From a virus: 64,000 bases of DNA. A program made the translations under genes and the position numbers. Numbering within the stretch: position 1 is the stretch's first letter; each line of letters begins with the position of its first letter. The notes under the pieces are model-generated. The model did no database searches. It was not told where the DNA came from and worked only from the letters and a program-made list of their open reading frames with translations. The stretch is from positions 1 through 64,000 of the IMG/VR virus record IMGVR_UViG_3300025237_000002; one strand, written 5' to 3'. Positions 2,335 through 23,869 of the stretch are shown here, piece after piece.

Positions 2335-3810
2335 ATGGAAATATTCAGATTGATAGTTTTAGGAATTTTTGTATACCTCATATACCTCATTATTTATGAC
2401 ATCTTCAATAAGAAACATGCTATAATGAGTAACTTCCCATTGATTGGAAGGCTTAGATACATTTTAGAGAAGATTGGACCAGAATTACGACAATACATTG
2501 TAGCTAGTAATAGAGAAGAAACCCCATTTAATAGACTTTGGCGAAATTACATATACGCATCTTCTAAAGGTGAAAATAATCTAACTGGGTTTGGTTCTGA
2601 CGCTGACTTTAACAAAACAGGACATTTCTTTCTTAAAACTTCTGTATTCCCAGTTAAAAATGATAATGTAACAACAATTCCAAGTGCAAAGATAATAGGC
2701 TCATGTAGAGATAAACCTTATAGACCAAAATCTGTTGTTAATATTTCAGCAATGAGTTATGGGTCATTAGGTAAAAAAGCAACTACGGCAAATAATATTG
2801 GAGCAGACATTGCTGGTGCTTACCATAATACTGGTGAGGGTGGATATTCACCCGAATATCATGGTAATGGGGCAGATGTTGTATTCCATATAGGTACAGG
2901 TTACTTTGGTTGTGGGGATACAGATGAAAATGGTCATAGACAATTTAATATGTGGAAGCTTAAAATGCTTGTTAATCTTAATCCAAATATTAAGATGATT
3001 GAACTTAAGTTATCGCAAGGTGCAAAACCAGGTAAGGGTGGAATACTTCCAGCGAATAAGGTAACACCAGAGATAGCAAAAGCAAGAGGTGTAAAAGTTG
3101 GTGAAACAGTTTATTCACCTTCATATCATAGTGCTTTTGATAATGTACACGATATGGTAAATCTGATTGAAGATATTGCTAACGAAACTGGTTTACCAGT
3201 TGGTATTAAATCGGCAGTTGGAAAGATGATTTTTTGGGATGATTTGGCTAGTTTAATGAATCGCACACACAAAGGTCCAGACTTCATAACAATTGATGGT
3301 GGTGAAGGTGGTACTGGAGCCGCACCAATTGCGTTTACCGATAACATGTCACTTCCACTAAGAGATGGGTTTGCACAAGTTTATAAAACGTTTCAAAAAT
3401 ATCATTTAGTAGATAGAATTACTTGGATAGCTTCGGGAAAGTTGGGTCACCCAACAAGAGCAGCAGTTGCATTTGCAATGGGAGCGGATTTAATCAATAT
3501 AGCAAGAGAAGTAATGATTTCTGCGGGTTGTATTCAAGCGCAACAATGTCACACTGGAAATTGTCCTACTGGTATTGCCACACACAAATGGTGGTTAGAG
3601 AAAGGTTTCAATGTAAAAGATAAATCTGAGAGGGTTGGTCTATTCATTAAAACCCTTGTTAAAGATATTCTTGAAGTAACTAATGCAAGTGGATACACAC
3701 ATCCTTGTGAATTTACAATGGACGATGTGATGTTCAATACAAGTGATTCTTCAAGAATGAAAAGCATGGAAGTGCTTTATGGTTATAAAAAAAATATAGT
3801 TAAAAGGTGA
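2335..3810 (+). CDS. FMN-binding glutamate-synthase-family protein
   Basis: A 491-aa protein of the stand-alone FMN-binding glutamate synthase family, which matches the TIM-barrel synthase domain of GltB. A membrane helix sits at residues ~4-24. The barrel carries SAMSYGSLG near residue 138, the FMN-phosphate-type motif GGEGGTGAAP near 322, and the iron-sulfur-type CHTGNCPTG segment (Cys405 and Cys410). GltB makes glutamate from glutamine and 2-oxoglutarate. The short family lacks the glutaminase domain and its reaction is poorly defined. The ORF is intact with all key motifs, so it is probably active. It has its own promoter and is unusual cargo for a phage. Confidence 0.85.
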   Translation: MEIFRLIVLGIFVYLIYLIIYDIFNKKHAIMSNFPLIGRLRYILEKIGPELRQYIVASNREETPFNRLWRNYIYASSKGENNLTGFGSDADFNKTGHFFLKTSVFPVKNDNVTTIPSAKIIGSCRDKPYRPKSVVNISAMSYGSLGKKATTANNIGADIAGAYHNTGEGGYSPEYHGNGADVVFHIGTGYFGCGDTDENGHRQFNMWKLKMLVNLNPNIKMIELKLSQGAKPGKGGILPANKVTPEIAKARGVKVGETVYSPSYHSAFDNVHDMVNLIEDIANETGLPVGIKSAVGKMIFWDDLASLMNRTHKGPDFITIDGGEGGTGAAPIAFTDNMSLPLRDGFAQVYKTFQKYHLVDRITWIASGKLGHPTRAAVAFAMGADLINIAREVMISAGCIQAQQCHTGNCPTGIATHKWWLEKGFNVKDKSERVGLFIKTLVKDILEVTNASGYTHPCEFTMDDVMFNTSDSSRMKSMEVLYGYKKNIVKR

Positions 3811-6573: not shown

Positions 6574-7965
6574 ATGAATTCAAAAACAAATGAGACGGCT
6601 TTTCCAAGTGCTCCAATATATAACGGTGAAGACACTGGTTATGATAAAGAGGTAAGTGAAAATGAAGTTACGCATCGTGAGGATTACGGTGAAGGAATTA
6701 CGGTTGGTGAAGAAAATCTTTTTGATGAAGGGATTACCAGTAAGAATAATTACAAATCAAAGATTAGTTTTTATGACGAAGTTAATAAGCCAATCATGGC
6801 TATTTTCTTTAGTTTTTTTAATTTACTAAGTCACAAGAGAACCAATGAAGGGTGTGATACTTTTAAAGGTGTTATGTTTAAAGGTATTTTAAACAATGAT
6901 AATACCTACATTGATTATCTTCCTGACCATCCACCGATGGTTTTTGAATATTCGGTATTACTAAACCTTAACGGTAACGATGTATCATTTGTTTTACTAG
7001 CTTTTAAAGAAGGTGGTAAAATTAGAAATATTATTAGATTATCAAGTTTAGATGATGATAATATTAAATCTCAAGTAGCTTATGATAATTTATTCAAGTT
7101 AGCTATAGATTCTTCAAATCTAAAGGGAAGTTACTTAACAATTTCCGATGAATATCTTGAATGGAAAATACGTGAATTGAAAGACATTTCATTTGACGAT
7201 GTATTCTTACCTGATGATTTGATGGAAGATTTACATATGTATGTTAAGTTATTTGAAAAGAAAAATGTCATTTCAAGGTATATGTTGAGTGGTGTTCCAG
7301 GAACTGGGAAAACTGAACTAACACGAGCTGTAAGTAATATTTTAAATCAGAAAGGTGTAACTATAATCAAGACAAACATTTGTAAGATTATAAAAGAGAA
7401 ATTTGAGTTAGCCAAAATATTAGCACCATGTGTTTTAATATTAGATGATATTGATTTATATCTAGGTGATAGAAATCATGGTTCATATAGTCCATTACTA
7501 GGGGCATTTTTAGATATCCTAGATGGTGTGGATAAATTACCTGATAATGTTGGGGTTATTGCGAGTACAAACGCACCACATTTGATTGATTTAGCGGCTC
7601 AAAGACCAGGTAGATTTGATAAGGTTTTATTCTTTGATGAGTTAACACATGATAATATCGAGGGTATCATAAAGAAATCATTAAAAAGTCTAAATAACAA
7701 ATACGGTAATGTAACTGAAGGTGATGTTTCAATATTAACTGATGTTAAGTTGGTGAAGTTCTTTAAAGAATCTGGTATGACTGGTGCATTTATTTATGAA
7801 ATTGTCCAAGACGTTAAAAATAAGTCAGAAATCTTAGAATTACCATTAGATTTAGATAAGATTGTTGCTGATATCAAGAGACGAAACGATGTTTTAGAAA
7901 AGAAATTACAGGCTGTAACCATAGCTAACAAGCTAAAAGGTGAAGGAAAAAAGATGGGATATTAA
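6574..7965 (+). CDS. AAA+ ATPase
   Basis: A 463-aa protein with a poorly conserved ~230-residue N-terminal part (first ~60 residues acidic) and a classic AAA domain. Walker A is GVPGTGKTE (residues ~240-248), Walker B is VLILDDID (~287-294), sensor 1 lies at VIASTNAP (~327), and the arginine-finger region RPGRFD at ~344. A small C-terminal helical domain follows. AAA proteins of this type remodel proteins or complexes. It precedes two coiled-coil proteins and an ABC transporter. By analogy with Vps4 and ESCRT-III it could disassemble the coiled-coil partners, but that is inference. Confidence 0.85.
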   Translation: MNSKTNETAFPSAPIYNGEDTGYDKEVSENEVTHREDYGEGITVGEENLFDEGITSKNNYKSKISFYDEVNKPIMAIFFSFFNLLSHKRTNEGCDTFKGVMFKGILNNDNTYIDYLPDHPPMVFEYSVLLNLNGNDVSFVLLAFKEGGKIRNIIRLSSLDDDNIKSQVAYDNLFKLAIDSSNLKGSYLTISDEYLEWKIRELKDISFDDVFLPDDLMEDLHMYVKLFEKKNVISRYMLSGVPGTGKTELTRAVSNILNQKGVTIIKTNICKIIKEKFELAKILAPCVLILDDIDLYLGDRNHGSYSPLLGAFLDILDGVDKLPDNVGVIASTNAPHLIDLAAQRPGRFDKVLFFDELTHDNIEGIIKKSLKSLNNKYGNVTEGDVSILTDVKLVKFFKESGMTGAFIYEIVQDVKNKSEILELPLDLDKIVADIKRRNDVLEKKLQAVTIANKLKGEGKKMGY

Positions 7966-7983
7966 AAAATAAATGGGAAATAG

Positions 7984-8015
7984 TTTGGTAGTTTGAATTA
8001 TTTTCCTTATATTTG
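7984..8015 (+). promoter_or_regulatory. Bacteroidota-type promoter
   Basis: TTTG at 7984-7987, 20 bp, TATATTTG at 8008-8015. It serves the coiled-coil pair at 8043-9841. Confidence 0.75.
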
Positions 8016-8042
8016 CATAATAATAACATTTAAAACTATAAT

Positions 8043-8783
8043 ATGTCAGAAAAAAAAGGAGGTTTATTTAATAAATTCTTAAACCTAATTTCAGAAGAAG
8101 TGCCAGAGAATGGTACTGTTGTGGAACAAACGAAAAAAGAATCAGCAAAAGCTGAGGGTATTCCAACACAAACATTAGATTTTGAGACTACTGTACCTGA
8201 AAAGTTCAGAAGCAAATCTATTACACCTAGCACAACTACCGTAAGAGGTGGTTTTAATGAAGAATTTTATAATCATCTTCAAGAAGAAATCAAGAAAAAT
8301 GATTTAGAAGGTGCTGATTATTACGAGTTCAGAAAAACCTATGAAGCACTTAGTAAAAACATGGGAGATGTTCAAGCATTAAACGCTTCATTCTCCGCAT
8401 TATGTGCAATGTCACCTAACTTAACGGTTGACCATTTATTAGAAACTGCTAATTTTTATTTAGATTTAGTAAATAAAGAACATGATGGTTTCGAAAATCA
8501 ATTCAACGACAAAATTACTACTGAAATTCATGGAAGACAATCAGCGATTGAAGCTGAGGATGAATTACAAGGAAAAATGACTAAAGAAATCGAAGCTCTT
8601 GAGTTAGAGATTCAAGAAAGTCAAAACAAGCAACAAGGTCTTCAGAATGAGAAAGACGTTGAAGAAGACAAACTTAATAGCGTAAAAGCTAATTGGGATT
8701 TCACTATTGAATTAGTAAAAAATAATATTAACACTGATATCGCCAACATCGGAACACATTTAGTTGGTACTAAAACCGTATAA
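8043..8783 (+). CDS. Coiled-coil protein
   Basis: A soluble 246-aa acidic protein, not recognised. The first ~70 residues are polar and probably disordered, residues ~80-150 helical, and residues ~165-235 form a long heptad-rich coiled coil (EDELQGKMTKEIEALELEI...). It lies two bases upstream of the membrane coiled-coil protein, so the two are probably partners. No signal peptide, hence cytoplasmic. Confidence 0.6.
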   Translation: MSEKKGGLFNKFLNLISEEVPENGTVVEQTKKESAKAEGIPTQTLDFETTVPEKFRSKSITPSTTTVRGGFNEEFYNHLQEEIKKNDLEGADYYEFRKTYEALSKNMGDVQALNASFSALCAMSPNLTVDHLLETANFYLDLVNKEHDGFENQFNDKITTEIHGRQSAIEAEDELQGKMTKEIEALELEIQESQNKQQGLQNEKDVEEDKLNSVKANWDFTIELVKNNINTDIANIGTHLVGTKTV

Positions 8784-8785
8784 TT

Positions 8786-9841
8786 ATGAAAGAAGATTTA
8801 AAACCTTTAAAAAGCTTTTGGGAAAAACCACAAGGAACTGTAGGTATGGTAGGTATAGGAGCCTTAGTATTTGGAGCTGGATGGTTAATCCTTAAGAATG
8901 CTGCGTGGTTAGCGTTAGCAATGTCAAACTTAACTACTGCTGTCTTTATGGGACTTGGTTTATTCGCCATTGCGTGGTTATTAACTGACAAAAAATTTAG
9001 AAACTTAATCTGGTTCCTTTATCAAGGACTGATGGAAAAAGCAACTTCAATATTCATTGAGATAGACCCAATTGGAATTATGAAAACTTACGTTAGTGAA
9101 CTTAATAACAAACGTAGTAAAATGAATGGTTTATTAGGAAAGCTTAAACAAGAGATTGGGAAATTAAAACGTGATATCAAGGATAATAAAACTGAGATAT
9201 CAACTTTAATGACTAAAGCTTCAGTTGCATCAAAATCGGAAGATAAAAGAATGCAAGCTAGAACTAATCTTAATACAAGAAAAGCTGCAAGACGACAAAA
9301 TTCAACTATGAAATTAGTAGATTTATTAATTAAGGTTGAAGGCTTATATAAGAAAATGGACAAGATGTACTACTACTCTGGTATCATGATTGAAGATGTT
9401 GATGACCAAGTAGAAACTATCGAAAGAGAGCGTAAAGTTATACATGCTAGTTATGGAGTGATGAAACATGCACAAAGTATTATCGCTGGTGATGATAACA
9501 AAGCACAAATGTTTGATAGAGCATTAGACTTCGTAGTAGAAGACTTAGGGGCGAAAATGGGTGAAATGGAGAGATTCATGGACTTATCACAAAACTTTAT
9601 GGATGGGGTTGACTTAGACAATGAAGTATTTGAAATGGAAGGTTTAGCTATGTTAGAAGCATGGGAAGGTCAAGACACTTTAAACTTCCTTAACCAAGGT
9701 TCTGTTGATTACTTAGAAGTGATTGACGCTAAAATGCACGCTGATAATGAGAAACCAGAACCAGTATTAGTAGATAAAACCCCTACCAATACGCAACCTT
9801 TAAAGCAAAAAGAAATGGGGAAAACAAACTTTTTTAATTAA
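8786..9841 (+). CDS. Membrane-anchored PspA/ESCRT-III-like coiled-coil protein
   Basis: A 351-aa protein with two membrane helices (residues ~18-38 and ~43-67) followed by a long, highly charged helical region (~90-290). The layout of an extended helical hairpin (SELNNKRSKMNGLLGKLKQ...), more helices, and a Glu-rich distal part resembles PspA/IM30/ESCRT-III proteins, which scaffold membranes. Another possible relative is the XpaC/TelA stress family. Sequence identity to either is not evident by eye. It sits between an AAA ATPase and an ABC transporter. Confidence 0.5.
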   Translation: MKEDLKPLKSFWEKPQGTVGMVGIGALVFGAGWLILKNAAWLALAMSNLTTAVFMGLGLFAIAWLLTDKKFRNLIWFLYQGLMEKATSIFIEIDPIGIMKTYVSELNNKRSKMNGLLGKLKQEIGKLKRDIKDNKTEISTLMTKASVASKSEDKRMQARTNLNTRKAARRQNSTMKLVDLLIKVEGLYKKMDKMYYYSGIMIEDVDDQVETIERERKVIHASYGVMKHAQSIIAGDDNKAQMFDRALDFVVEDLGAKMGEMERFMDLSQNFMDGVDLDNEVFEMEGLAMLEAWEGQDTLNFLNQGSVDYLEVIDAKMHADNEKPEPVLVDKTPTNTQPLKQKEMGKTNFFN

Positions 9842-9844
9842 AAG

Positions 9845-9876
9845 TTTGGTAGAACCAAATAAAAGTTATATATTTG
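9845..9876 (+). promoter_or_regulatory. Bacteroidota-type promoter
   Basis: TTTG at 9845-9848, 20 bp, TATATTTG at 9869-9876, upstream of the binding-protein/OmpA fusion. The AT-rich leader is about 40 nt. Confidence 0.75.
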
Positions 9877-9925
9877 CATAGAAGTAACATTTAAATATTA
9901 ATTAACATTAAAAAAAACAGTAATT

Positions 9926-11488
9926 ATGGCAAGAGCAATTAAACCATCAGGAAAAATCGCAATCGTATTATTGATTGCAGTAGGAGCGTTATTCGCCCTA
10001 TGGTCAACGGACAATTTGAACTTCGCATCTGTATTTCCAGATGAAGATTCGAATTCCGAAACAACTAGTTCAACTAGAAAGGTAAATAAGGACGTACCTA
10101 AAGACGTTCTAACAATAAACGTAGGTGTTGTAACTTGGGGTGGATATGTCGGAGGACAGTATTTCAACGAAGGGTTCGATGCTAATACAAACTCAAGATT
10201 CTATAAAGATTATGGGTTCTTAGTAAACTTTGAAGTTATTGATGACTTTAATGCATCAAGAGCGGCTTGGAAATCAGGTGATATCGATTTACTATGGGCA
10301 ACCACTGGCTCATTCTCAACGGAAGCTCCAGGTTTGAAAGAATTTGAACCACAAATTATATTCCAATCAGATTGGTCTAGAGGTGGTGATGCAGTAGTAG
10401 TACGTAAAGGTATTACAACAGTGAATGATTTAAAAGGTAAAACCATTGCGGTAGCACCTATGACACCATCACATACATTCTTCCTAAACTTATTAGAAGC
10501 GGGAAGTCTTAAACAAACTGACTTAACAGTAATCGAAGTATCTAACGCAATCGATGCGGCTGATATGTTCAAAAATGGACAAGTTGATGCGGCTGTAGTA
10601 TGGTCACCTGACGATATTAGTTGTGTGAATTCAGTAAAAGGTTCTAAAATCCTTCAATCAACTAAACAAGCATCTTATATAATTGCTGATATGTTTATCG
10701 CTAAAAAGAGCTTCGTTAATAGTCACAAGGCTGAGTTAGGTCAATTAGTAACTGGTTGGTTAACTGGTGCGGGTGAAATTAACACAAATGCTGGGTCTAA
10801 AAACAAAGCAGTTCAAATATTAGCGTCTGGTCTTAACATCAGTGAAAGCGATGCACTAGGGTCTATTGACAATGTTAGGTTAACTACATATGGAGATAAC
10901 GTTAATTACTACGGGTTGAACCCTGACTTTAACGGTGTAACAGGAGAGAAAATATATGCTCAAATGTCTCAAAAATATAAGCAAGTTGGTTATTTAAGTG
11001 AAAATACATATTGGAGAACAGTAGGTAATCCTAATATAATTAGAAGTATCACTTTAACTGGTAGTGCTAATTCAGCTGAGGGAAGTGTTAAATTCACTAA
11101 ACCAACAGTAACCATGGCTGACACCAAACTTACAACTGCGGTATCAACTAAACAAGTAACTGTATCATTCCCAACTGGTAGTGCTACATTATCAGAAGAC
11201 TCTAAATATAAAATTGATAGAGAATTTTTAGAAATCGCACAAAACTTTGCTAACGCTAGAATTAGAATTTCAGGTAATACTGATAACACTGGTAGCTATC
11301 AAGGTAACGTAACATTATCAAAACGTAGAGCGCAAGCTGTAGCAAGTTACTTAAGTAATGAGCATGGTTTTGATAGAAACAGATTTGTAGTAGTAGGGAA
11401 TGGTCCTGATTACCCAACTGCATCAAATGGTTCTGCCGAAGGTAGAGCACAAAACAGAAGGACTGACTTTGAATTGATTTCAGAGTAG
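9926..11488 (+). CDS. ABC substrate-binding protein fused to OmpA-like peptidoglycan-binding domain
   Basis: A 520-aa protein with an N-terminal membrane anchor (residues ~9-27). A periplasmic binding domain follows (~55-345) resembling the nitrate/sulfonate/taurine (NMT1/SsuA) class: TINVGVVTWGGYVGG, then DIDLLWATTG, then DLKGKTIAVAPMTPSHTF. A linker leads to an OmpA-family domain (~405-520) with SGNTDNTG, LSKRRAQAVASYL and a final NRRTDFEL, the motifs that grip peptidoglycan. The protein should capture a solute while tethered to both the inner membrane and the cell wall. A strong terminator separates it from the permease gene. Confidence 0.85.
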   Translation: MARAIKPSGKIAIVLLIAVGALFALWSTDNLNFASVFPDEDSNSETTSSTRKVNKDVPKDVLTINVGVVTWGGYVGGQYFNEGFDANTNSRFYKDYGFLVNFEVIDDFNASRAAWKSGDIDLLWATTGSFSTEAPGLKEFEPQIIFQSDWSRGGDAVVVRKGITTVNDLKGKTIAVAPMTPSHTFFLNLLEAGSLKQTDLTVIEVSNAIDAADMFKNGQVDAAVVWSPDDISCVNSVKGSKILQSTKQASYIIADMFIAKKSFVNSHKAELGQLVTGWLTGAGEINTNAGSKNKAVQILASGLNISESDALGSIDNVRLTTYGDNVNYYGLNPDFNGVTGEKIYAQMSQKYKQVGYLSENTYWRTVGNPNIIRSITLTGSANSAEGSVKFTKPTVTMADTKLTTAVSTKQVTVSFPTGSATLSEDSKYKIDREFLEIAQNFANARIRISGNTDNTGSYQGNVTLSKRRAQAVASYLSNEHGFDRNRFVVVGNGPDYPTASNGSAEGRAQNRRTDFELISE

Positions 11489-11499
11489 ATATATTCATT

Positions 11500-11551
11500 A
11501 AAAAAGCGTGAGATTACGTGACATCTGTCTACCCTCTCACGCTTTTTTTTT
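11500..11551 (+). terminator. Strong intrinsic terminator
   Basis: Perfect stem AAAAAGCGTGAGA/TCTCACGCTTTTT with T8, lying between the binding protein and the permease. Some read-through is likely needed for permease expression, giving more binding protein than transporter, a common arrangement for ABC importers. Confidence 0.9.
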
Positions 11552-11562
11552 AAATCTTAAAT

Positions 11563-12357
11563 ATGAAAAAATATTTTAAATTAAGAGGTGAGTTATCAAA
11601 GAAAGCTGAAACATTAATTGGTTTTGGTGGACTTATAGCAATATTGTTGACTTGGTATGGTATTACCAGTAGTGGTCTAGTATCAAAGTCAATCCTACCA
11701 AATCCAGTAGATGTTCTGGCATCATTTAAAACTTTACACTTTGACAAGTTTTTGATTAAGAACACTCTTTATTCATTAAAACTTAATTACCTAGGATATA
11801 TACAAGCTGTGCTTATAGCAATCCCATTAGGGTTTATAATAGGTTTATTTCCATTCTTTAGAGCATTACTATCTAAGTATGTAGATTCAAGTAGATTCAT
11901 CCCCTTAACGGCTTTAACAGGTTTATTCATTGTTTGGTTCGGGATTCAAGATAACATGAAAGTACAATTCTTAGCATTTGGTATTATGGTTTACTTATTA
12001 CCAATCGTAGTGCAACGAATATCACAAGTTTCAGAAGTATATGTACAAGCGGCTCAAACGTTAGGCGGTACTAAATGGCAAATAATTAAACATGTATTCT
12101 TACCAGCAGTTTTGAGTAAGTTATTTGATGACATTAAAGTTATCGTAGCAATTTCATGGACGTACATTATCATTGCAGAAATGGTGAATAGTACAGGTGG
12201 TATTGGAGCAATGATATTCAAATCAGCAAGACAAAGTAGGACCGAAGAAGTATTCGCACTCTTAATTGTTATAGTTGTAATCGGAATCATCCAAGATAAA
12301 TTATTCACATGGGCTGATAAATTAATCTTCCCATATAAACACTTAACCAAAGCGTAA
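11563..12357 (+). CDS. ABC transporter permease (SsuC/TauC-like)
   Basis: A 264-aa polytopic inner-membrane protein with about six helices (first at residues ~18-38). The cytoplasmic EAA loop, VYVQAAQTLGGTKWQIIKHVFLPAVL, near residues 159-185 is the coupling site for the ATPase. Length and loop match permeases of the nitrate/sulfonate/taurine family. It starts 12 bp after a terminator and ends next to the ATPase start. Confidence 0.85.
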   Translation: MKKYFKLRGELSKKAETLIGFGGLIAILLTWYGITSSGLVSKSILPNPVDVLASFKTLHFDKFLIKNTLYSLKLNYLGYIQAVLIAIPLGFIIGLFPFFRALLSKYVDSSRFIPLTALTGLFIVWFGIQDNMKVQFLAFGIMVYLLPIVVQRISQVSEVYVQAAQTLGGTKWQIIKHVFLPAVLSKLFDDIKVIVAISWTYIIIAEMVNSTGGIGAMIFKSARQSRTEEVFALLIVIVVIGIIQDKLFTWADKLIFPYKHLTKA

Positions 12358-12358
12358 T

Positions 12359-13174
12359 ATGGAATTTATAAACGATTTAGCAAAGCCAGACATAATTGAA
12401 TTAAGAGGGATTGAAAAATCCTACGGTCTAGGTGATAAAAAGAAAACAATCATAGAAGGTTTCAACTTCTTAATTGAACGAAATGAAAATATTGTTAACG
12501 GTAAAAGACAAGGACAATTTAAAACGATTCTAGGACCTTCAGGTTGTGGAAAATCAACTGTCCTAAGAATGATTGCGGGATTAACAAAACCGACTAGTGG
12601 TAGTGTTCTAATTGACGAAGTGCCAATAACTGAAAGCCCTAAGATAGGGATGGTGTTTCAAAAATACTCTAATTTTCCATGGTTAACAGTTCTTGAAAAT
12701 GTTGCACTTGGATTAAAATTTCAAGGTATTAATAAGAAAGAACGTCAAGAGAGAGCAATGGAAATGGTTAAATTGGTAGGTCTTGAAGGACATGAAGATA
12801 AGTTCGCTCAATACCCAACCTTATCAGGTGGTCAACTGCAACGTGTAGCGATTGCAAGAAGCCTTGTAGCGAGTCCAAACATATTGTTAATGGATGAACC
12901 ATTTGGTGCATTAGATGTTAAGACAAGGTTGCAGATGCAAGATTTGTTGGTTACTATCTATGAGACATTAAATCCAACTATCATCTTTGTAACGCATGAT
13001 ATCCAAGAAGCTGTATACTTGTCAGATGACATATACATTATGGGTACGGCACCTAGTAAATTTGTAATGCATTATGATATTGCGTTACCATTTAATAGAA
13101 AGGGTATTAAAAGAGACCCAAAATTTATGAAAATTGTAGAACAAATTGAAGACACGATGATGTCTATTAATTAA
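12359..13174 (+). CDS. ABC transporter ATP-binding protein
   Basis: A 271-aa nucleotide-binding subunit with every catalytic motif: Walker A GPSGCGKST (59-67), Q-loop Gln101, signature LSGGQ (155-159), Walker B ILLMDEP (Glu180) and switch His213. The sequence matches the SsuB/TauB/NrtD class and pairs with the adjacent permease. All elements of an active importer are therefore intact within 3.3 kb. Confidence 0.92.
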   Translation: MEFINDLAKPDIIELRGIEKSYGLGDKKKTIIEGFNFLIERNENIVNGKRQGQFKTILGPSGCGKSTVLRMIAGLTKPTSGSVLIDEVPITESPKIGMVFQKYSNFPWLTVLENVALGLKFQGINKKERQERAMEMVKLVGLEGHEDKFAQYPTLSGGQLQRVAIARSLVASPNILLMDEPFGALDVKTRLQMQDLLVTIYETLNPTIIFVTHDIQEAVYLSDDIYIMGTAPSKFVMHYDIALPFNRKGIKRDPKFMKIVEQIEDTMMSIN

Positions 13175-13571: not shown

Positions 13572-14213
13572 ATGAGAAATTTAATCTTAGGCTTTTTTGC
13601 CTTATTTATTACAGTGGCAGTTTCTGCCCAAAATTATTCTTATTTCGACAACGATGTGAGATTTTATGATGACAAAGAAATGTTGGGTGACCCAGTGGTA
13701 ACACTTACTCATTTTGGTCAATTCCAAATAACTGAAAGTTTCGGTTTCACGGATTATGCTTCAATTGAAGGAAATGATGCGTATAGCTACGGTCAAGTCT
13801 TATTAGGTGGGTATTATAACTTTGGTAACTTTACTGCTTATGTAATGGCTGGTAAAGAAAGTATTTCTAATGACGTTAGATTTGGATATATGTTATACTA
13901 CACAACTGGAGATGACTTTAGAGCATATGGATTCTATCAACGAAATGGTGACCCATTTGCAAGCGATACTAAAGATAGTGAATGGTACGATGTTATGGCA
14001 CGATTTGCTTTAATATCAAAAACTAAAAACTCAGTATATGTCGGTGGACGTTTTATGACTTATTACGGATTAGGACCAACAGTTAGTGTAAGACAATCTT
14101 TAAGTGATACAAGTAATGTCTATGTAGGATTTACAATGTATAATGATGTTGCTGACGATTACAGTGATGGTGATTGGACTCCAACGCTAACGTTAGCGGT
14201 TGAATTCAACTAA
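13572..14213 (+). CDS. Outer-membrane beta-barrel protein
   Basis: A 213-aa protein with a signal peptide (residues 1-19, cut after VSA). The rest alternates hydrophobic and polar residues in aromatic-rich strands: SYGQVLLGGYYNFGNFTAYVMAG, then VYVGGRFMTYYGLGP, ending in TLTLAVEFN with a terminal aromatic residue as in barrels inserted by Bam. It is likely an 8-10-strand barrel in the host outer membrane. Placed directly after the ABC importer, it could supply the outer-membrane step, or act in superinfection exclusion. Confidence 0.7.
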   Translation: MRNLILGFFALFITVAVSAQNYSYFDNDVRFYDDKEMLGDPVVTLTHFGQFQITESFGFTDYASIEGNDAYSYGQVLLGGYYNFGNFTAYVMAGKESISNDVRFGYMLYYTTGDDFRAYGFYQRNGDPFASDTKDSEWYDVMARFALISKTKNSVYVGGRFMTYYGLGPTVSVRQSLSDTSNVYVGFTMYNDVADDYSDGDWTPTLTLAVEFN

Positions 14214-14296: not shown

Positions 14297-15031
14297 TTGG
14301 GAGCAAAAGAAAGTTATCACTTAGACAAAAAACCTTACGGAAATCATAAAATGTATTCAATTAAAGAAGAGTTTTTAGCCCACGTAGATACCAAAAGAAT
14401 GAATTGGTACTTAGATAGAGATTTAGCAATTATGCTGAATGAGAAGGACTTTAGACTAACATTCAAGAGTAAAGGTGATAGGCGTGACGCTGAAACAGCT
14501 TACTATAAATTAGAATTACAAAATAAGTGTGTGGTTTGTGGAAATGAAGATGAACTAACAAAACATCACGTAGTTCCAACTCAATATCGTAAGTACTTAC
14601 CAATGAATTATAAATCTAAAAGCTCATTTGATGTGCTTGTTATATGTTCTGACTGTCATCATGAATATGAAGCAATCGCTGATGTGCTAAAATTAGAGAT
14701 ACTAACTAAATATGGTCTGGAAAATCATTCTAAACAAATGATTAAGATTAAATCATATCATAATACGTTAAGTAATCATTCACAATATCTTTCAGATGAT
14801 AGACGAAGTGAAATGGTTGAATGCCTTGAAACTTATTTCGAGTCAACAATTGAAGAAATTCTAGCTGTTGATGATTATGAGTTCGAGTCAACAACTTATT
14901 TATTAATGAAGAATATTACTGACTATGAGGATTTTGTAATCATGTGGAGAAAGCATTTTATTAAACATGCTAACCCACAACACTTGCCACAAGAATGGAT
15001 TGATGAAATTAATCTTGTAATTAGACAATAA
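14297..15031 (+). CDS. HNH endonuclease-like protein
   Basis: A 244-aa protein with a treble-clef HNH module: CVVCG, then TKHHVVP about 12 residues later, then LVICSDCHHEYEA. The two CxxC pairs bind zinc and the HH pair is catalytic. HNH proteins in phages can be homing nucleases, packaging nucleases or antihost nucleases; no intron lies nearby. Start is TTG at 14297; an in-frame ATG at 14351 (Met19) is the alternative. No strong promoter was seen, so low read-through is likely. Confidence 0.75.
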   Translation: MGAKESYHLDKKPYGNHKMYSIKEEFLAHVDTKRMNWYLDRDLAIMLNEKDFRLTFKSKGDRRDAETAYYKLELQNKCVVCGNEDELTKHHVVPTQYRKYLPMNYKSKSSFDVLVICSDCHHEYEAIADVLKLEILTKYGLENHSKQMIKIKSYHNTLSNHSQYLSDDRRSEMVECLETYFESTIEEILAVDDYEFESTTYLLMKNITDYEDFVIMWRKHFIKHANPQHLPQEWIDEINLVIRQ

Positions 15032-15088: not shown

Positions 15089-15409
15089 ATGAAATGGACA
15101 ACAACTAATATAATGCTTGCGATATTAATTGCAGCTAGTTTAGTTACCAGCTATAAACTACACCAAGTAGTTAACAGGTACGATGATATGAAAGTTCAAG
15201 TAACTAAAGTAGTCGGTGAAGTAGATGTTAAAATCGATGACTTCAATAAAGTACTTGAAGATTTCACACTCAAATACGGTGATGAAATCGCAGAAGGATT
15301 AAAAGAAGAAGCGGATATCTTAAGAGCTGATGCTGAAAAATACGCTGACTCTCTTAGAGTCAAAGCGAGTACATTTTTAAAAAAAATTAATACTAAAACA
15401 ACAGAATAA
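15089..15409 (+). CDS. Membrane-anchored coiled-coil protein (106 aa)
   Basis: A 106-aa protein starting at the ATG after the promoter. An N-terminal membrane helix (residues ~7-24) is followed by a charged helix to the end. It overlaps the next start by one base, and heads a membrane/lipoprotein operon (15089-16423). Confidence 0.65.
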   Translation: MKWTTTNIMLAILIAASLVTSYKLHQVVNRYDDMKVQVTKVVGEVDVKIDDFNKVLEDFTLKYGDEIAEGLKEEADILRADAEKYADSLRVKASTFLKKINTKTTE

Positions 15410-15678
15410 TGAAAAAATTAATGATTATCGGGATACTATCCCTATTTATGTTTTCTTGTACGGAAAATTCAAGAGCTAAAACCTTTGGTGGAACGGCTAA
15501 ATTAGCAGTTCCTTGCGGGCAGAAAGTTCTAAACATCACTTGGAAAGATAATGAACTATGGTACAGTACTGTACCAATGGAAGCTGGTTATACGCCACGA
15601 GTACACACATTTTCAGAAGAGTCTTCTTGGGGTGTGATGGAAGGAAATTATATAATTACTGAAACTAAATGTAACTAA
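15409..15678 (+). CDS. Putative lipoprotein (89 aa)
   Basis: An 89-aa protein with a type II signal peptide: basic N-terminus, hydrophobic core, then FMFSC with the lipidated Cys at 17. The mature part is small and polar. No acidic sorting signal for surface export follows the Cys (TENSRAK), so either leaflet is possible. Phage lipoproteins often block superinfection; that role is speculative here. Confidence 0.75.
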   Translation: MKKLMIIGILSLFMFSCTENSRAKTFGGTAKLAVPCGQKVLNITWKDNELWYSTVPMEAGYTPRVHTFSEESSWGVMEGNYIITETKCN

Positions 15679-15680
15679 TT

Positions 15681-16226
15681 ATGGAACAGATTCTTGAAAA
15701 TTTAACAGGGTTTATCCTGTTCGGAAGTGTGTTATGGTTTTGGGTATTCACATCAGCATTCTTATTAGTATTATTTTTATCCGACATTTATGAAAACGGT
15801 TATTATGCATTCGTGTCATTTCTAATATTTCTTGGATTTTTACATTTCAAGAGTAATTTAGATTTACTAAGTTTTATTCAATTATATTGGTATACACCTT
15901 TCATATACTTAGGAATTGGAATGATATACGCAATGATTAGAACCTACTTTTATGGTAGAAAACCATATAAACCACCTTTTGTTAATAAAGAGGATAGTGC
16001 TGAAAAAGTAAGAGAATTAAAAAGAGAAGCGTTAAAATCTAAATTAAAAAAGAATGTATTTAGATGGTGGTTCTTATTTCCAATATCATTTATAAATTGG
16101 GTATTATCTGATTTACTAAAAGAGTTCTTCAGTGCAATTTACAGTAAATTGAGAAAGGTATTTGAAGGTATCTTAGATATGGGTATAAATTCAGTTTCAA
16201 CTGAAGATGAAAAAGATTCAGAGTAA
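15681..16226 (+). CDS. Multi-pass membrane protein (181 aa)
   Basis: A 181-aa protein with about three N-terminal membrane helices (residues ~10-35, 40-65, 70-95), a basic stretch, and another hydrophobic segment near 120-140. No family recognised. One-base overlap with the next gene. Confidence 0.6.
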   Translation: MEQILENLTGFILFGSVLWFWVFTSAFLLVLFLSDIYENGYYAFVSFLIFLGFLHFKSNLDLLSFIQLYWYTPFIYLGIGMIYAMIRTYFYGRKPYKPPFVNKEDSAEKVRELKREALKSKLKKNVFRWWFLFPISFINWVLSDLLKEFFSAIYSKLRKVFEGILDMGINSVSTEDEKDSE

Positions 16227-16645: not shown

Positions 16646-16677
16646 TTTGTATATTAAATAAAATTGTTTTATATTTG
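16646..16677 (+). promoter_or_regulatory. Bacteroidota-type promoter
   Basis: TTTG at 16646-16649, 20 bp, TATATTTG at 16670-16677, followed by an ~40-nt A-rich leader before ATG 16717. Confidence 0.75.
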
Positions 16678-16716: not shown

Positions 16717-18552
16717 ATGAAAACAATGTATTTAAAAATTTTCACAATCCTAGTATTCTTAACGGGATTTTCAAACTTATCAGCGCAAGATTTTATATTA
16801 GCACCTAATGGTGTTACTTGTCTATGTCCAACAGCAAGTGTTGGTGATACAGGGGATGTAAATGGAATTACTTATACCAAAAGAACAAGAGAAGATATTA
16901 CAGATGTAAATGCGGATACTACTTGTACGAGTGACATTACAGATATGTCAGAATTGTTTTGGGGTCACACTGATTTTAATGGTGATATTAGTTCTTGGGA
17001 TACGAGTTCTGTGGTTAACATGGAATTTACATTAGCAGATACACAAGTATTTAATCAAAATATAGGGTTTTGGGATGTGAGTTCTGTTACAAATATGAAA
17101 GCATTATTTGCTGGAGCTTCTTTATTTAATCAAGATATTAGTTCTTGGGATACGAGTTCTGTGGTTAACATGGAAGGATTATTTGCAGTTGCATCAGTTT
17201 TTAATCAAGATATAAATAGTTGGGATGTAGGTAATGTTACTAACATGACCAATATGTTTACAATGGCTTCTTTATTTAATCAAGATATAGAGATTTGGCA
17301 ATTCAACTCTAATGTTGAATTTGATAGTTTTGTCAGTAATTCTGGTTTGGATATAAATAATTATAACTCCTTGTTAAATGCTTTTTCAACTCAAAATCTA
17401 ACTAACAAAACATTAAATTCAGATAATTTAACTTATTGTAATATAACCGCTTGGGAAGATTTAGTAAATAATAAAGGTTGGACGATTTCAGGGGATACTT
17501 ATTCTCAAACTATTATCGAAGCACCAAATAATGTGGGTGTTGCACCAGATAGTGGCACTTGTATAGCTACAAATGTAGACCTTGGTACACCTACGATTAC
17601 TAATGCATGTGGAACTACAACAGTTACTAATGATGCGCCATCTGAATACCAAATAGGTGATACCGATATTATTTGGACAGTTGTCGATGAAAATGGTGTG
17701 GAATCAACAGATTTACAAACCGTATCAGTAATAATAGATGTCGATATTGCAGAACTATGTTATGTAAGTAGTGATGATATTGAAGTAACTAAAAATAGAG
17801 TCTTTCTTTTTAATATAGATGGGCTTAATGTTGATAATTATGAAGTGTTAAGAGAAACAACTACGGGTGGTGTTTATGAAACTATTGGTTTTATAGTACC
17901 ACCAGCAAATTCATTTTTGGATAATACATCAAATAACTCTACTCAAGCATATCGTTACAAAGTTCAAACTTTAGATATCTGTGGTACTTTGTCAGAAGAA
18001 TCACCTTATCATAAAACGATTTTATTGCAAAGTAGTATTGCGGCAAATAATACAATAAATCTTAGTTGGACACCATATGTTGGTACTGATTATACAACGT
18101 ATAATATTTTCAAACAGATTAACGGTGGGACTTTTGAATTATTTACTTCAATAGCGTCTACGAATTTAACATATAATGACATTGAAGTGGACTTATCAAT
18201 AAACTCATACGCATATTATGTTTCAATTGATGTCGCTGGTTGTATCGGAACACCATTTATGTCAGAGGCGATTAGGTCAAATCAAGATGGTACGATGATA
18301 CTTGATGTTGTAGACGTTGAACAATTGAAAAAATCTATTATTTTGTTTCCAAATCCATCAAGCTCAATAGTTAACGTTAGTGTTCCTAATGATGTGATGT
18401 TTAATAAAGTTAGTGTAATAAACAATATTGGACAAGTAGTTGCTAAATATAACACTAAGACTTTCAATGTTGAGAGTTTAATAGGTGGTATATATTACAT
18501 AACAATTGAAACCGATAAAGGCGTTTTTACTAAGAGATTAATAAAACGATAA
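16717..18552 (+). CDS. BspA-like surface protein with type IX secretion sorting domain
   Basis: A 611-aa protein. Residues 1-23 are a signal peptide (cut after LSA). Residues ~68-190 hold four or more BspA/DUF285 repeats with the core SSWDTSSVVNM...F.ga..FNQDI. Residues ~255-345 look like a HYR/Ig-like domain and ~350-520 like fibronectin-type folds. The last ~70 residues (ILFPNPSSSIVNVSV... ending GGIYYITIETDKGVFTKRLIKR) match the type A C-terminal signal of the Bacteroidota type IX system. The product should be exported through the host machinery to the surface or medium. BspA repeats bind host or cell-surface partners in other proteins. Confidence 0.85.
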   Translation: MKTMYLKIFTILVFLTGFSNLSAQDFILAPNGVTCLCPTASVGDTGDVNGITYTKRTREDITDVNADTTCTSDITDMSELFWGHTDFNGDISSWDTSSVVNMEFTLADTQVFNQNIGFWDVSSVTNMKALFAGASLFNQDISSWDTSSVVNMEGLFAVASVFNQDINSWDVGNVTNMTNMFTMASLFNQDIEIWQFNSNVEFDSFVSNSGLDINNYNSLLNAFSTQNLTNKTLNSDNLTYCNITAWEDLVNNKGWTISGDTYSQTIIEAPNNVGVAPDSGTCIATNVDLGTPTITNACGTTTVTNDAPSEYQIGDTDIIWTVVDENGVESTDLQTVSVIIDVDIAELCYVSSDDIEVTKNRVFLFNIDGLNVDNYEVLRETTTGGVYETIGFIVPPANSFLDNTSNNSTQAYRYKVQTLDICGTLSEESPYHKTILLQSSIAANNTINLSWTPYVGTDYTTYNIFKQINGGTFELFTSIASTNLTYNDIEVDLSINSYAYYVSIDVAGCIGTPFMSEAIRSNQDGTMILDVVDVEQLKKSIILFPNPSSSIVNVSVPNDVMFNKVSVINNIGQVVAKYNTKTFNVESLIGGIYYITIETDKGVFTKRLIKR

Positions 18553-18555
18553 AAA

Positions 18556-18587
18556 CTTGTTTGTTAAATATATTTGTAGTATATTTG
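18556..18587 (+). promoter_or_regulatory. Bacteroidota-type promoter (tRNA cluster)
   Basis: CTTG at 18556-18559, 20 bp, TATATTTG at 18580-18587, just upstream of the first tRNA-like element. Confidence 0.75.
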
Positions 18588-18598
18588 CAGAGTCAAAA

Positions 18599-18721
18599 TT
18601 CAGGAATGGTAAATTGGTAAAGCACCATGGGGGAACTGTGGGATGTAGGTTCGAATCCTTAAGTATAGTGAAAGCTAAACGACTATGGTAGTATTGTAGG
18701 TTCAAGTCCTACTTCCTGAAC
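18599..18721 (+). tRNA. Chimeric tRNA-like element (123 nt)
   Basis: The ends pair as an 8-bp acceptor (TTCAGGAA/TTCCTGAA). Inside are one D-arm-like GGTAAATTGGTAAAGCACC and two T-arm-like segments (GTAGGTTCGAATCC and GTAGGTTCAAGTCCTAC). The length is well above a normal tRNA and no proper anticodon arm is evident. Most simply, this is two tRNAs fused by a deletion that removed the 3' end of one and the 5' half of the next. An inserted tRNA is the alternative. Confidence 0.4.
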
Positions 18722-18778
18722 AACTAAATGGTTAATAATCAACCATTTAAAAAAAGATTAAAAAAAATGTGATTTTTG

Positions 18779-18810
18779 CTTGTTTATTAAATATATATAT
18801 AGTACATTTG
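18779..18810 (+). promoter_or_regulatory. Tandem promoter 1 upstream of the large RNA
   Basis: CTTG at 18779-18782, 20 bp, TACATTTG at 18803-18810. The initiated sequence (AGAGTCGAAAGAAAGTTATTAT) is repeated after the next promoter. Confidence 0.7.
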
Positions 18811-18870
18811 CAGAGTCGAAAGAAAGTTATTATGGTTAACATAAAACTTTTGAAAATAAATTCAAAAAGA

Positions 18871-18902
18871 CTTGTTTATTACAATATAATGTAGTATATT
18901 TG
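18871..18902 (+). promoter_or_regulatory. Tandem promoter 2 upstream of the large RNA
   Basis: CTTG at 18871-18874, 20 bp, TATATTTG at 18895-18902. It lies in a ~92-bp direct repeat with the preceding promoter, with the same start sequence. Confidence 0.75.
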
Positions 18903-18974
18903 CAGAGTCGAAAGAAAGTTATTATAGTGGTAAGTTATCACAATAAAAACTTTTTTAAATTAAAAGCAAAAAGA

Positions 18975-19006
18975 CTTGTTTATTAAAATAATAAGTTGTA
19001 TATTTG
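18975..19006 (+). promoter_or_regulatory. Tandem promoter 3, proximal to the large RNA
   Basis: CTTG at 18975-18978, 20 bp, TATATTTG at 18999-19006. Transcription would start a few bases before the first hairpin (GTCGTTTA-GAAA-TAGACGAC) of the giant RNA. Confidence 0.75.
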
Positions 19007-19009
19007 CAA

Positions 19010-19930
19010 AGTCGTTTAGAAATAGACGACACGTTCTTAAAAATATTGAAAATAATGGGGTGCTTATACTCCTTCCTCTTCGGGGGATAAGATAAACCTA
19101 GTAATAGGGATAAAGCGATGTATTCAAAGTGCATTGCGTTGAGAAGACTTCTTCGGGAGTTTTAACAATCTATGTAAGCAATTAATCACGAACCATACAT
19201 CGAGGGGCTACTGTCATAGATGAATTGAGTTCACCTCCTAGCTTCGGGGGGTTGAGTTAGAAATAGCAAAAGATGATTAATTAGTTTTTGGTTGAAACAT
19301 GTAAAAAGTGGATAGGCTGAATTCATCATAATTTGTTATGGAATGTTACCTTGAAATGCGGCACCTAACAGAGTCGTAGATTGATAGGAGATGAACCTTC
19401 GGGTGATTCTTTAAATGTAAATCTAATTAATGAAGAAATGACGTGACTGTAAAAAGTTGCAACGGGATGTTGATAGCTAAAGTGCTCAAAAGGCAACACG
19501 CTAGTCAATCGCAAGACACATCCTGTAAGAGAGAGCATCGCTATACAACTAAGGTTAATAGCCTTAATTTTTAATTTGATAAAAATTGTAAAGAGAAAGT
19601 TCTTGTGGACATGGATAAAAAATTAAGTTATTCTACTGAAAAATGTAGATGATGGAGGCTCTCAAGGCTGAAGTTAAAACGAGAGAAGTATCGTTAGTAA
19701 GAGGTGGGAACCTTTGCATCCCTTCCAAGGGAACTAGGTAATGAAAGTTGTTTATATCAATTCATGGTGAGAAAGGTGAAAGCCTAATCGTTCTCTTCGG
19801 AGAATAAAAGAGTTTGCAGTTGCTAATTTAAAACTGTCTTAGTGATACCTACGGACACGAAAGTGAAAGTGTGTGATATAGGGAAACCGAAAACGAAAGG
19901 TATTATAAACGCCCAAACACTCAAGCGTTT
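19010..19930 (+). ncRNA. Giant ornate non-coding RNA (GOLLD/ROOL-type candidate)
   Basis: About 0.9 kb without credible ORFs but rich in RNA structure. It opens with an 8-bp hairpin capped by GAAA (19011-19031). Stems capped by UUCG follow near 19075 (CCTC/GGGG), 19150 (ACTTC/GGAGT), 19397 (ACC/GGT) and 19793 (TTCTC/GAGAA), with an ACCTCC/GGGGGT stem near 19232 and a CAC-GAAA-GTG hairpin near 19857. Length, three tandem promoters and position at the head of a phage tRNA array match GOLLD and ROOL RNAs, which are known to be large, phage-borne and tRNA-linked. I could not align it to either consensus. A novel class is possible. Confidence 0.65.
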
Positions 19931-19934
19931 AATC

Positions 19935-20009
19935 GGGGATGTAGCTTAATAGAGAGCGGCTTGGTTTCAAATCCAAGAGGATGTAGTATCGATTCTACCA
20001 TCCCCACCA
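19935..20009 (+). tRNA. Aberrant tRNA-like element with encoded CCA
   Basis: Acceptor GGGGATG/CATCCCC, then A and an encoded CCA. The D-arm GCTT-AATAGA-GAGC lacks the usual GG. The anticodon arm CTTGG/CCAAG has an 8-nt loop (TTTCAAAT), so the anticodon is ambiguous (TCA or CAA by register). The T-arm is GTAG/CTAC with an 8-nt loop (TATCGATT). These features recur in neighbours at 20383 and 20828. Confidence 0.5.
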
Positions 20010-20059
20010 ATAGACTTGATAAAGCCTCTTCCTTATTGGAACGTAATTAAGTATAGTAT

Positions 20060-20126
20060 GGGTATACAATTAAGGTTCTCACCAACCTTTAAGGTTGTAT
20101 CATAGGTTCAAATCCTTCTATACCCA
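20060..20126 (+). tRNA. Aberrant tRNA-like element (67 nt)
   Basis: A perfect acceptor GGGTATA/TATACCC and a T-arm-like TAGGTTCAAATCCTT. The middle can instead form one long hairpin (ATACAATTAAGGTT with AACCTTTAAGGTTGTAT), and no regular D-arm is seen. The same 3' half (CCTTCTATACCCACTAAA) recurs at 24040-24060. Confidence 0.4.
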
Positions 20127-20137
20127 CTAAAATTAAA

Positions 20138-20209
20138 GAGGTCTCGTCTAATTAAAGATGGTCAGCGTAAGTTGACAGATGTGGTTGGAAACACCATAGT
20201 CTCTAAAGA
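20138..20209 (+). tRNA. Degenerate tRNA-like element
   Basis: AGAGGTC and AGTCTCT pair through 6 bp (two wobbles). GTCAG/TTGAC can form an anticodon-like stem with a 6-nt loop, and GTGGT/ACCAT a T-arm-like stem with loop TGGAAAC. Consensus D- and T-loop bases are missing. Confidence 0.3.
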
Positions 20210-20382
20210 AGTTTAGGTTCGGTAGTCCGATAGTGAAGTACAAACGATAGTTTAACGACAACCTTTATACTAAAATAGTTCTCATTGGCTATTCAATTCA
20301 ATGGGTATGACCCAACTTTAATGTTGGTTGATACTACAAGGGGAGTGTCGTAAAAACCTACAAGTTAGTCGTGTAGCGAAAA

Positions 20383-20451
20383 GGGAATGTCGTCTAATAG
20401 AAGGCAGCTGGCGTGAAGCTGGAAAATGTAGTATCAAATCTACCATTCCCA
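20383..20451 (+). tRNA. Aberrant tRNA-like element
   Basis: Acceptor GGGAATG/CATTCCC. D-region GTCTAATAGAAGGC lacks GG. The anticodon stem CAGCT/AGCTG is perfect but its loop (GGCGTGA) lacks U33. T-arm GTAG/CTAC has an 8-nt loop (TATCAAAT). It shares these departures with the elements at 19935 and 20828. Confidence 0.45.
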
Positions 20452-20661
20452 CTAAAGGATATGCACGAATGCAGTTAAGCGATACCTTTCAAATCGGAGG
20501 AACTGTACAAGGAGTAACTGAAATAGGTTTTCCAAAATAGATTTTTTGAGTAGTGGGTGTAAATACCGTATAAAGGTAAGCAACAAGAAAGAAAAAATAA
20601 TAGTAAATCCTAAGACTTGCGAAAGCTGGTTCAATAACAAATAGTTAGGTAATCTATTAAA

Positions 20662-20752
20662 TGGGGGTATAGCCCACACCTGTCGTGAAGATGGTGAAGT
20701 GGTAACTATGCTGAGAATGTAACTGTGAATGTTGCTACCTCCACAAATTGAG
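20662..20752 (+). tRNA. Possible degenerate tRNA-like element
   Basis: GGGGGTA (near 20662) and TACCTCC (near 20743) can pair as a 7-bp acceptor. The interior shows no consensus D-, anticodon or T-arm. It is listed because it continues the series of aberrant elements. Confidence 0.2.
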
Positions 20753-20827
20753 TTTAGTTTTGCGGTTAAGTTCTCAATTAAATAAAAAACTGGTGGGGTG
20801 TTAAACCCCATCGTAAACGCCCAATTG

Positions 20828-20903
20828 ACACTGGGATAGCTTAGTAAAGAGCAACCCGAAATTATAAGAGGTAGTGTGAGGTATTGAATCCTCAATCAGT
20901 GTT
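20828..20903 (+). tRNA. Aberrant tRNA-like element
   Basis: Acceptor ACACTGG/TCAGTGT. D-arm GCTT-AGTAAA-GAGC matches the one at 19944. T-arm TGAGG/CCTCA is perfect but has the 8-nt loop TATTGAAT. The anticodon arm is unclear. A T-run follows directly and may act as terminator. Confidence 0.4.
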
Positions 20904-20926
20904 TTTTAAAAATAAATGAAAATAAA

Positions 20927-20958
20927 TTAGGATGTTTGAATACTTTTATGTATTTTTG
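20927..20958 (+). promoter_or_regulatory. Promoter of the 33-aa microgene
   Basis: TTAG at 20927-20930, 20 bp, TATTTTTG at 20951-20958. Confidence 0.6.
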
Positions 20959-21008
20959 CATACTTATTATAAACGCACTAAGTGCAAAACGATTAAAAAA
21001 TAGAAATT

Positions 21009-21110
21009 ATGACAACAGTAACGACATATACGAAACAGTATCAACCGAAGGGCGGGAAGCCACAAGGTCAACTGAGTATGCGTTGTTATAACGATGAAGA
21101 AGAAGGATAA
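21009..21110 (+). CDS. 33-aa microprotein within the tRNA cluster
   Basis: A 33-aa ORF beginning MTTVTTYTKQYQPKGGKPQG and ending in acidic DEEEEG. It has an A-rich ribosome-entry region, its own promoter (20927) and its own strong terminator (21139). No homologue is recognised. GC content is higher than in neighbouring genes. The basic-then-acidic layout might bind RNA or a host protein, but that is a guess. Confidence 0.6.
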   Translation: MTTVTTYTKQYQPKGGKPQGQLSMRCYNDEEEG

Positions 21111-21138
21111 GTTCTTAATCATAATAAACAATATAGCT

Positions 21139-21170
21139 AAACCCAGTTGAAATCTTCAACTGGGTTTTTT
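21139..21170 (+). terminator. Strong intrinsic terminator
   Basis: A 12-bp perfect stem AACCCAGTTGAA/TTCAACTGGGTT with T6. It isolates the microgene from the downstream tRNAs. Confidence 0.92.
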
Positions 21171-21235
21171 GCGTTCTATAGGTTTTTCATCACCTGATAA
21201 AAAAGATGAATCTTTGAAATATTGTATTTTTTTAT

Positions 21236-23789: not shown

Positions 23790-23862
23790 GTCCTATTAGT
23801 TTAACTGGATAAAACTGGGGGTGCTAAACCCTCGGATGTGGGTTCGAATCCCATATAGGAAA
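23790..23862 (+). tRNA. tRNA, probable GCT anticodon (Ser codons) without long arm
   Basis: Acceptor GTCCTAT/ATAGGAA with a G-A first pair, D-arm with GG, anticodon stem GGGGG/CCCTC around TGCTAAA. The strict 7-nt loop puts G at position 33; shifting by one gives U33-GCT. T-arm GTGGG-TTCGAAT-CCCAT. The short variable region argues against normal serine identity. Confidence 0.6.
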
Positions 23863-23869
23863 CAATTAA

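Follow-up and report, generated by a model that had tools for sequence, protein, structure and literature searches.

A putative type IX secretion cargo gene beside an ABC/OmpA module in a Lak-related huge phage of marine-type Bacteroidota

Results

A phage-encoded protein with the export signals of type IX cargo

We find that a virus infecting marine-type Bacteroidota probably encodes a cargo protein for the type IX secretion system (T9SS) of its host. The gene lies in the 64,000-nucleotide stretch analyzed here, referred to as the window, which comprises bases 1-64000 of a 110,535-base IMG/VR virus record. We base this reading on a signal peptide, BspA repeats and an intact type A C-terminal sorting domain (CTD) in the protein, on a homologue in Flavobacteriaceae, on the pattern of SprA occurrence and on purifying selection. 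In the T9SS route, proteins are exported by Sec and translocated by SprA, after which PorU cleaves the CTD and the product is attached to A-LPS or released. The phage protein would thus be made during infection and leave the cytoplasm by Sec, would cross the outer membrane through SprA with its CTD as guide, and would be tethered on the surface or released once PorU had removed the CTD. An open reading frame coding for 611 aa is present at 16717-18552, where the sequence-only reading had placed it, and the features of the gene and its product are as follows.

16717..18552, + strand: candidate T9SS cargo gene (signal peptide, N-terminal C-x-C region, BspA/DUF285 repeats, HYR-like domain, two FN3-like domains, type A CTD)
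16717..16785, + strand: predicted signal peptide, residues 1-23 (LSA before QDF), from sequence inspection and a near-identical leader in the bacterial homologue L173
16975..17340, + strand: BspA/DUF285 (PARCEL) repeats, residues 87-208, from PF03382, TIGR02167 and the repeat register
17737..18291, + strand: FN3-like pair, residues 341-525, from the sequence with weak structural support; the best-conserved part between two phage copies (84-87% aa)
18343..18549, + strand: type A T9SS C-terminal sorting domain, residues 543-611, from TIGR04183 and PF18962 matches over cut-off
16646..16677, + strand: putative Bacteroidota-type promoter (TTTG ... TATATTTG) upstream of the cargo gene, a pattern match

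The leader (MKTMYLKIFTILVFLTGFSNLSA, followed by QDF) has a K-rich start, a hydrophobic core and LSA before Q; judged by eye, it is a standard Bacteroidota-type Sec signal peptide, in agreement with the one proposed from the sequence. HMM scans matched the repeats to PF03382 at 163.8 bits (cut-off 25) and to TIGR02167 at 49.9 bits, and five repeats starting at residues 87, 112, 137, 162 and 187 keep a regular 25-residue spacing, which bears out the BspA assignment. For the proposed type A CTD, the lack of a match to CTD models had been named beforehand as a refutation, and two independent models matched: TIGR04183 at 38.5 bits (E = 8.6e-10, residues 543-611, model positions 1-72 of 72, cut-off 23) and PF18962 at 35.7 bits (curated cut-off 27). 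TIGR04131, the model for type B CTDs, gave no match in the protein. The CTD sits at the very C-terminus, ending at residue 611 of 611, and the protein is the single TIGR04183 match in the record. At 38-50 bits, the CTDs of the phage cargo copies score below those of the strongest bacterial cargo, which reach 72 bits.

The middle of the protein had been described as Ig-like domains. By sequence inspection, an Ig-like (HYR-like) domain is indeed present at residues about 265-340, but it is just one, and the rest consists of two FN3-like domains (about 341-525). No Pfam model matched residues about 265-525. In the AlphaFold model, residues about 41-340 are well predicted, 342-439 poorly and the CTD moderately well, and Foldseek searches with this model returned weak matches to FN3 scaffolds and adhesins, mostly generic beta-sandwich chains.

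These features bear on whether the protein could instead be a virion component, for instance an adhesin of the tail or baseplate, a role that BspA/DUF285 proteins may have in certain jumbo phages. Similar repeats occur in 109 phage records, and in the 462-kb uncultured huge phage LR756500.1 a DUF285-like protein that has neither signal peptide nor CTD lies among apparent tail genes. CTDs over cut-off were present in 3 of 50 records picked by BspA repeats, so most viral BspA proteins are not T9SS cargo. The protein studied here, however, carries both a signal peptide and a CTD, its full architecture occurs in bacteria, and its gene stands away from any structural gene found, with transport and tRNA genes as neighbors; once secreted, moreover, it would be unavailable for virion assembly. 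We therefore regard a virion role as very improbable.

Bacteroidota promoters follow a known -33/-7 consensus, from which we derived the pattern TTTGTNNNTTN{6,14}TANNTTTG. This pattern, hand-written after the site at 16646..16677 had been seen, yields 3 matches in the 64-kb window compared with 0.38 expected. Between the cargo gene and the tRNA array, 18553-21235 is a 2.7-kb stretch with few ORFs, in which repeated promoter-like units (TTGTTTATT...TATTTGCAG) were seen by eye. Directly downstream of the cargo gene, a 121-base tRNA-like match (18600-18720; Rfam, 30.8 bits) contains about 45-50 inserted bases and a stretch resembling a second T-arm.

Bacterial homologues and selection between phage copies

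Judging from its homologues, the cargo is a captured host-type surface protein of bacterial (flavobacterial) origin. An alignment-based scan of bacterial genome contigs found homologues, although the single cargo protein as query returned nothing, and the family is represented in Flavobacteriaceae, among them Psychroflexus, Planktosalinus and Nonlabens. The homologue L184 (JAQWJJ010000009.1), from a Flavobacteriaceae MAG, spans residues 22-611 (E = 3e-141), carries DUF285 and PF18962, and comes from a chromosomal contig on which uvrB and sucC lie close by. BspA-CTD surface proteins of this type share the domain order of the phage cargo (C-x-C region, DUF285, HYR-like, FN3-like, CTD), whereas L184 differs from the phage protein in its chromosomal location, an additional N-terminal cupredoxin domain (PF00127) and a larger number of repeats. 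SprA (2400-2900 bits) and 35-88 TIGR04183 CTD proteins were found in all eight homologue-bearing bacterial genomes tested. In the virus records tested, SprA was absent from four of four and each held one CTD protein; thus the phage brings the cargo and not the machine.

In a tree of the N-terminal 190 aa, the window copy falls beside the bacterial L173, apart from the other phage copy, with 93/94 support that is below the tool's 95/80 star. On this placement, and with support at that level, host capture is likely to have occurred more than once or with mosaic exchange. Full-length relatives of the cargo with 62-64% identity are found on two other IMG/VR contigs, which are near-identical to each other and were counted as one relative, L002. 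Between the window and L002 copies, dN is 0.271 and dS 0.692 (dN/dS about 0.39), and selection has therefore kept the protein: the cargo gene is under purifying selection between phage copies. In the FN3-like part, dN/dS is 0.16-0.22. Both dN and dS are unusually low in this part (FN3b dS 0.315 vs about 0.8 elsewhere), a pattern suggestive of recombination.

The same data address the idea that the gene is a host-derived passenger with no role for the phage. Its clear bacterial origin and the grouping of its N-terminal part with a bacterial sequence, at that sub-star support, would fit such a history; purifying selection between phage copies, with the lower dN/dS in the FN3-like part, speaks against it, as do the intact frame, the gene's own promoter-like site and the substitution of other CTD proteins for this cargo in relatives. 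We consider a mere passenger quite unlikely.

The ABC/OmpA module adjoining the cargo slot

The cargo gene lies downstream of a set of transport and envelope genes.

9926..11488, + strand: ABC substrate-binding domain fused to OmpA with an N-terminal membrane anchor (SBP-OmpA), in the conserved module adjoining the cargo slot
11563..12357, + strand: ABC importer permease (NitT/TauT type), 86% to L020 and 64% to L021
12359..13174, + strand: ABC importer ATPase, 85% to L020 and 63% to L021
13572..14213, + strand: exported, probably outer-membrane beta-barrel protein, with a signal peptide by inspection and about 12 predicted strands
14297..15031, + strand: HNH-type protein (weak match), kept near the L020 (60%) and L002 (42.5%) loci
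15409..16226, + strand: lipoprotein-like (89 aa) and membrane-protein (181 aa) genes flanking the cargo slot, conserved in L020

The stretch 6574-13174 is a module of huge phages consisting of an AAA+ ATPase, two coiled-coil/membrane proteins, SBP-OmpA, the ABC permease and the ATPase; it constitutes a phage-borne ABC importer with a peptidoglycan-binding SBP. Lak megaphage records contain the module, as do about 20 IMG/VR contigs of closer huge phages. The SBP-OmpA gene matches 15 of 15 listed Prevotella phage Lak records (about 40% over 85% length). Around it, the coiled-coil/membrane genes, the permease and the ATPase can be recognized in an unchanged order in Lak and on other huge-phage contigs. 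Our literature search on Lak and jumbo-phage ABC modules returned nothing relevant.

The phage identity claimed in the sequence-only reading is upheld by the origin of the record, its gene content and this kinship with Lak megaphages. Phage-type genes in the record include a beta-glucosyl-HMC-alpha-glucosyltransferase, a dNMP kinase and a phage-type sigma factor, and the record also encodes enzymes of NAD salvage and a large array of tRNAs. The scan of record proteins identified neither a capsid nor a terminase gene, which makes it probable that the record is a fragment. Both points would also fit bacterial DNA misassembled or misclassified as virus. Such an error is exceedingly improbable, given a neighboring module akin to that of complete circular Lak megaphage genomes, the glucosyltransferase, kinase, sigma factor and tRNA array, the synteny with other viral contigs and the absence of SprA from the record.

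The tRNA array includes a tRNA with anticodon CTA at 23790-23863 (an amber suppressor, called tRNA-Pyl). Prompted by this tRNA and by the recoded Lak phages, we considered TAG recoding in the record and rejected it: TAG is an ordinary stop, and read-through yields short junk. Genes for a cytidylyltransferase/Nudix protein (41000-42034), a nicotinamide phosphoribosyltransferase (43808-45475) and a PRPP synthetase (52011-52973) likely form an NAD+ reconstitution set, which perhaps counters NAD-depleting defences. At 2335-3810, the phage encodes a glutamate-synthase FMN domain (PF01645, 257 bits) on its own, in a protein whose N-terminal part includes a membrane segment.

Different CTD proteins in or near the cargo slot of related phages

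L020 (record G003), the closest syntenic relative, shows a gene-by-gene match to the window between 4456 and 16226, at 40-86% identity (SBP 73%), and its slot is filled by an unrelated 554-aa glucose/sorbosone-dehydrogenase-like (GSDH-like) CTD protein. L021 (G004; SBP 57%) holds another CTD protein, of 317 aa, 4.9 kb past the SBP gene, and L067 (G045) a DUF4832-CTD protein 4.5 kb from the SBP gene. The CTD cargo at or close to this position thus differs between related phages, which makes the slot look like a site of exchange. L020 also encodes a second exported protein (2939-3493, 184 aa) that has no Pfam match and ends in a CTD-like tail lacking the PNP motif, possibly a degenerate CTD.

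In 5 of the 8 records that bear a CTD, the CTD gene lies <10 kb from the SBP gene, compared with 1.6 expected (P = 0.006), a count that includes the discovery record and in which G003 is not independent of the window; leaving out the discovery record and the record found through the cargo protein gives P = 0.06. The link between CTD cargo and the ABC module is thus modest. Among 50 records picked by SBP, many of them fragments, CTDs over cut-off were present in 6 and absent from 44, and HMM scans found none in the three Lak genomes checked. As most of these related huge-phage records and the three Lak genomes are without a CTD over cut-off, the trait is not required.

LR756500.1 encodes a further, unrelated T9SS CTD protein (L011 1498-2607; 369 aa, 37.1 bits), to which the CTD match in IMG/VR record G036 is equal in frame length and score. 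A tblastn search of 50,697 phage records with the cargo CTD returned nothing and is insensitive, since the HMM found the CTD in LR756500.1; a hand-written CTD consensus, likewise an insensitive test, retrieved one 4.4-kb record from the same set.

The proximity of CTD and SBP genes, which lie within 8 kb of each other in five of the eight records, could also mean that the cargo forms the outermost link of an uptake chain, encoded by the phage, that raises the nutrient supply to the infected cell, with the CTD protein outside, the barrel protein (13572-14213) in the outer membrane, SBP-OmpA in the periplasm and the permease and ATPase inside. In L002, the BspA cargo gene lies within the ABC gene run itself, between an exported barrel-like gene and the permease. 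The cargo proteins are, however, mutually unrelated (BspA, GSDH, DUF4832), which fits one dedicated role poorly, and the structure model of the barrel-like protein is of low confidence (pLDDT 37), too poor to use. In addition, the importer parts of the window and L002 are just 24-34% identical, far below their BspA cargo, so cargo and importer do not co-evolve. Overall, we judge an uptake chain unlikely.

Discussion

As host T9SS cargo, the protein would act on the surface of the infected cell. There, its BspA/Ig/FN3 stalk may cover or alter the surface, either masking receptors and excluding competing phages or changing attachment or gliding, a role that we put forward tentatively. Within it, we prefer receptor masking and the exclusion of rivals, because T9SS/gliding mutants of F. 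columnare (sprA, gldM and gldN) are phage resistant (PMC9233685), which means that T9SS-dependent surface components matter for infection there, and because the same role has been proposed for Cryophage cargo. Its role might instead be adhesion or nutrient capture. More doubtful is a broader scheme in which huge Bacteroidota phages maintain a dedicated site for cargo exchange next to the conserved ABC/OmpA envelope module. Through it, they would install one of many interchangeable T9SS proteins on the infected cell, as one element of a remodelling of the entire envelope by the phage.

Phage genes that exploit the T9SS had been called seldom described; they are indeed rarely reported, but precedents exist (PMC7468147, 2020; PMC6949934, 2019). 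Cryophage carries type A sorting-domain genes that are highly variable between relatives at set places, and its authors proposed that the phage hijacks the T9SS of its host, with superinfection exclusion as a result (Bellas et al. 2020, PMC7468147). The present record is alike in holding a CTD gene that varies among relatives; the Cryophage cargo, in contrast, comprises an endoglucanase, a GH39 and a PA14 protein, whereas the cargo here is a BspA/HYR/FN3 protein, encoded next to the ABC-importer module of a huge phage related to Lak. T9SS sorting domains were also seen in BACON-domain gut phages (2019; PMC6949934), Bacteroidota phages in which one such protein is likewise fused to a repeat domain, but there the repeats are carbohydrate-binding BACON domains, the genes lie near head genes and the phages come from the gut. 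BspA/DUF285 proteins of the jumbo phages Vibrio phage pir03 (ORF 287, PMC7765460) and Synechococcus phage ACG-2014f belong to the same repeat family; their hosts are not Bacteroidota, and tblastn with the cargo CTD found no T9SS CTD in them.

The case is therefore a well-supported new example of phage T9SS cargo and not a new kind of system. What is new is a BspA/FN3 cargo traced to a flavobacterial protein, its setting in a Lak-related huge phage beside an ABC/OmpA module, and a clean syntenic swap of cargo. Secretion data for phage T9SS cargo proteins were not found in the papers searched, and phage use of the host type IX system is known from sequence alone, in few genomes. This cargo gene offers a concrete test case for whether phages dress the cells they infect, for example against rivals that need T9SS-dependent surface components.
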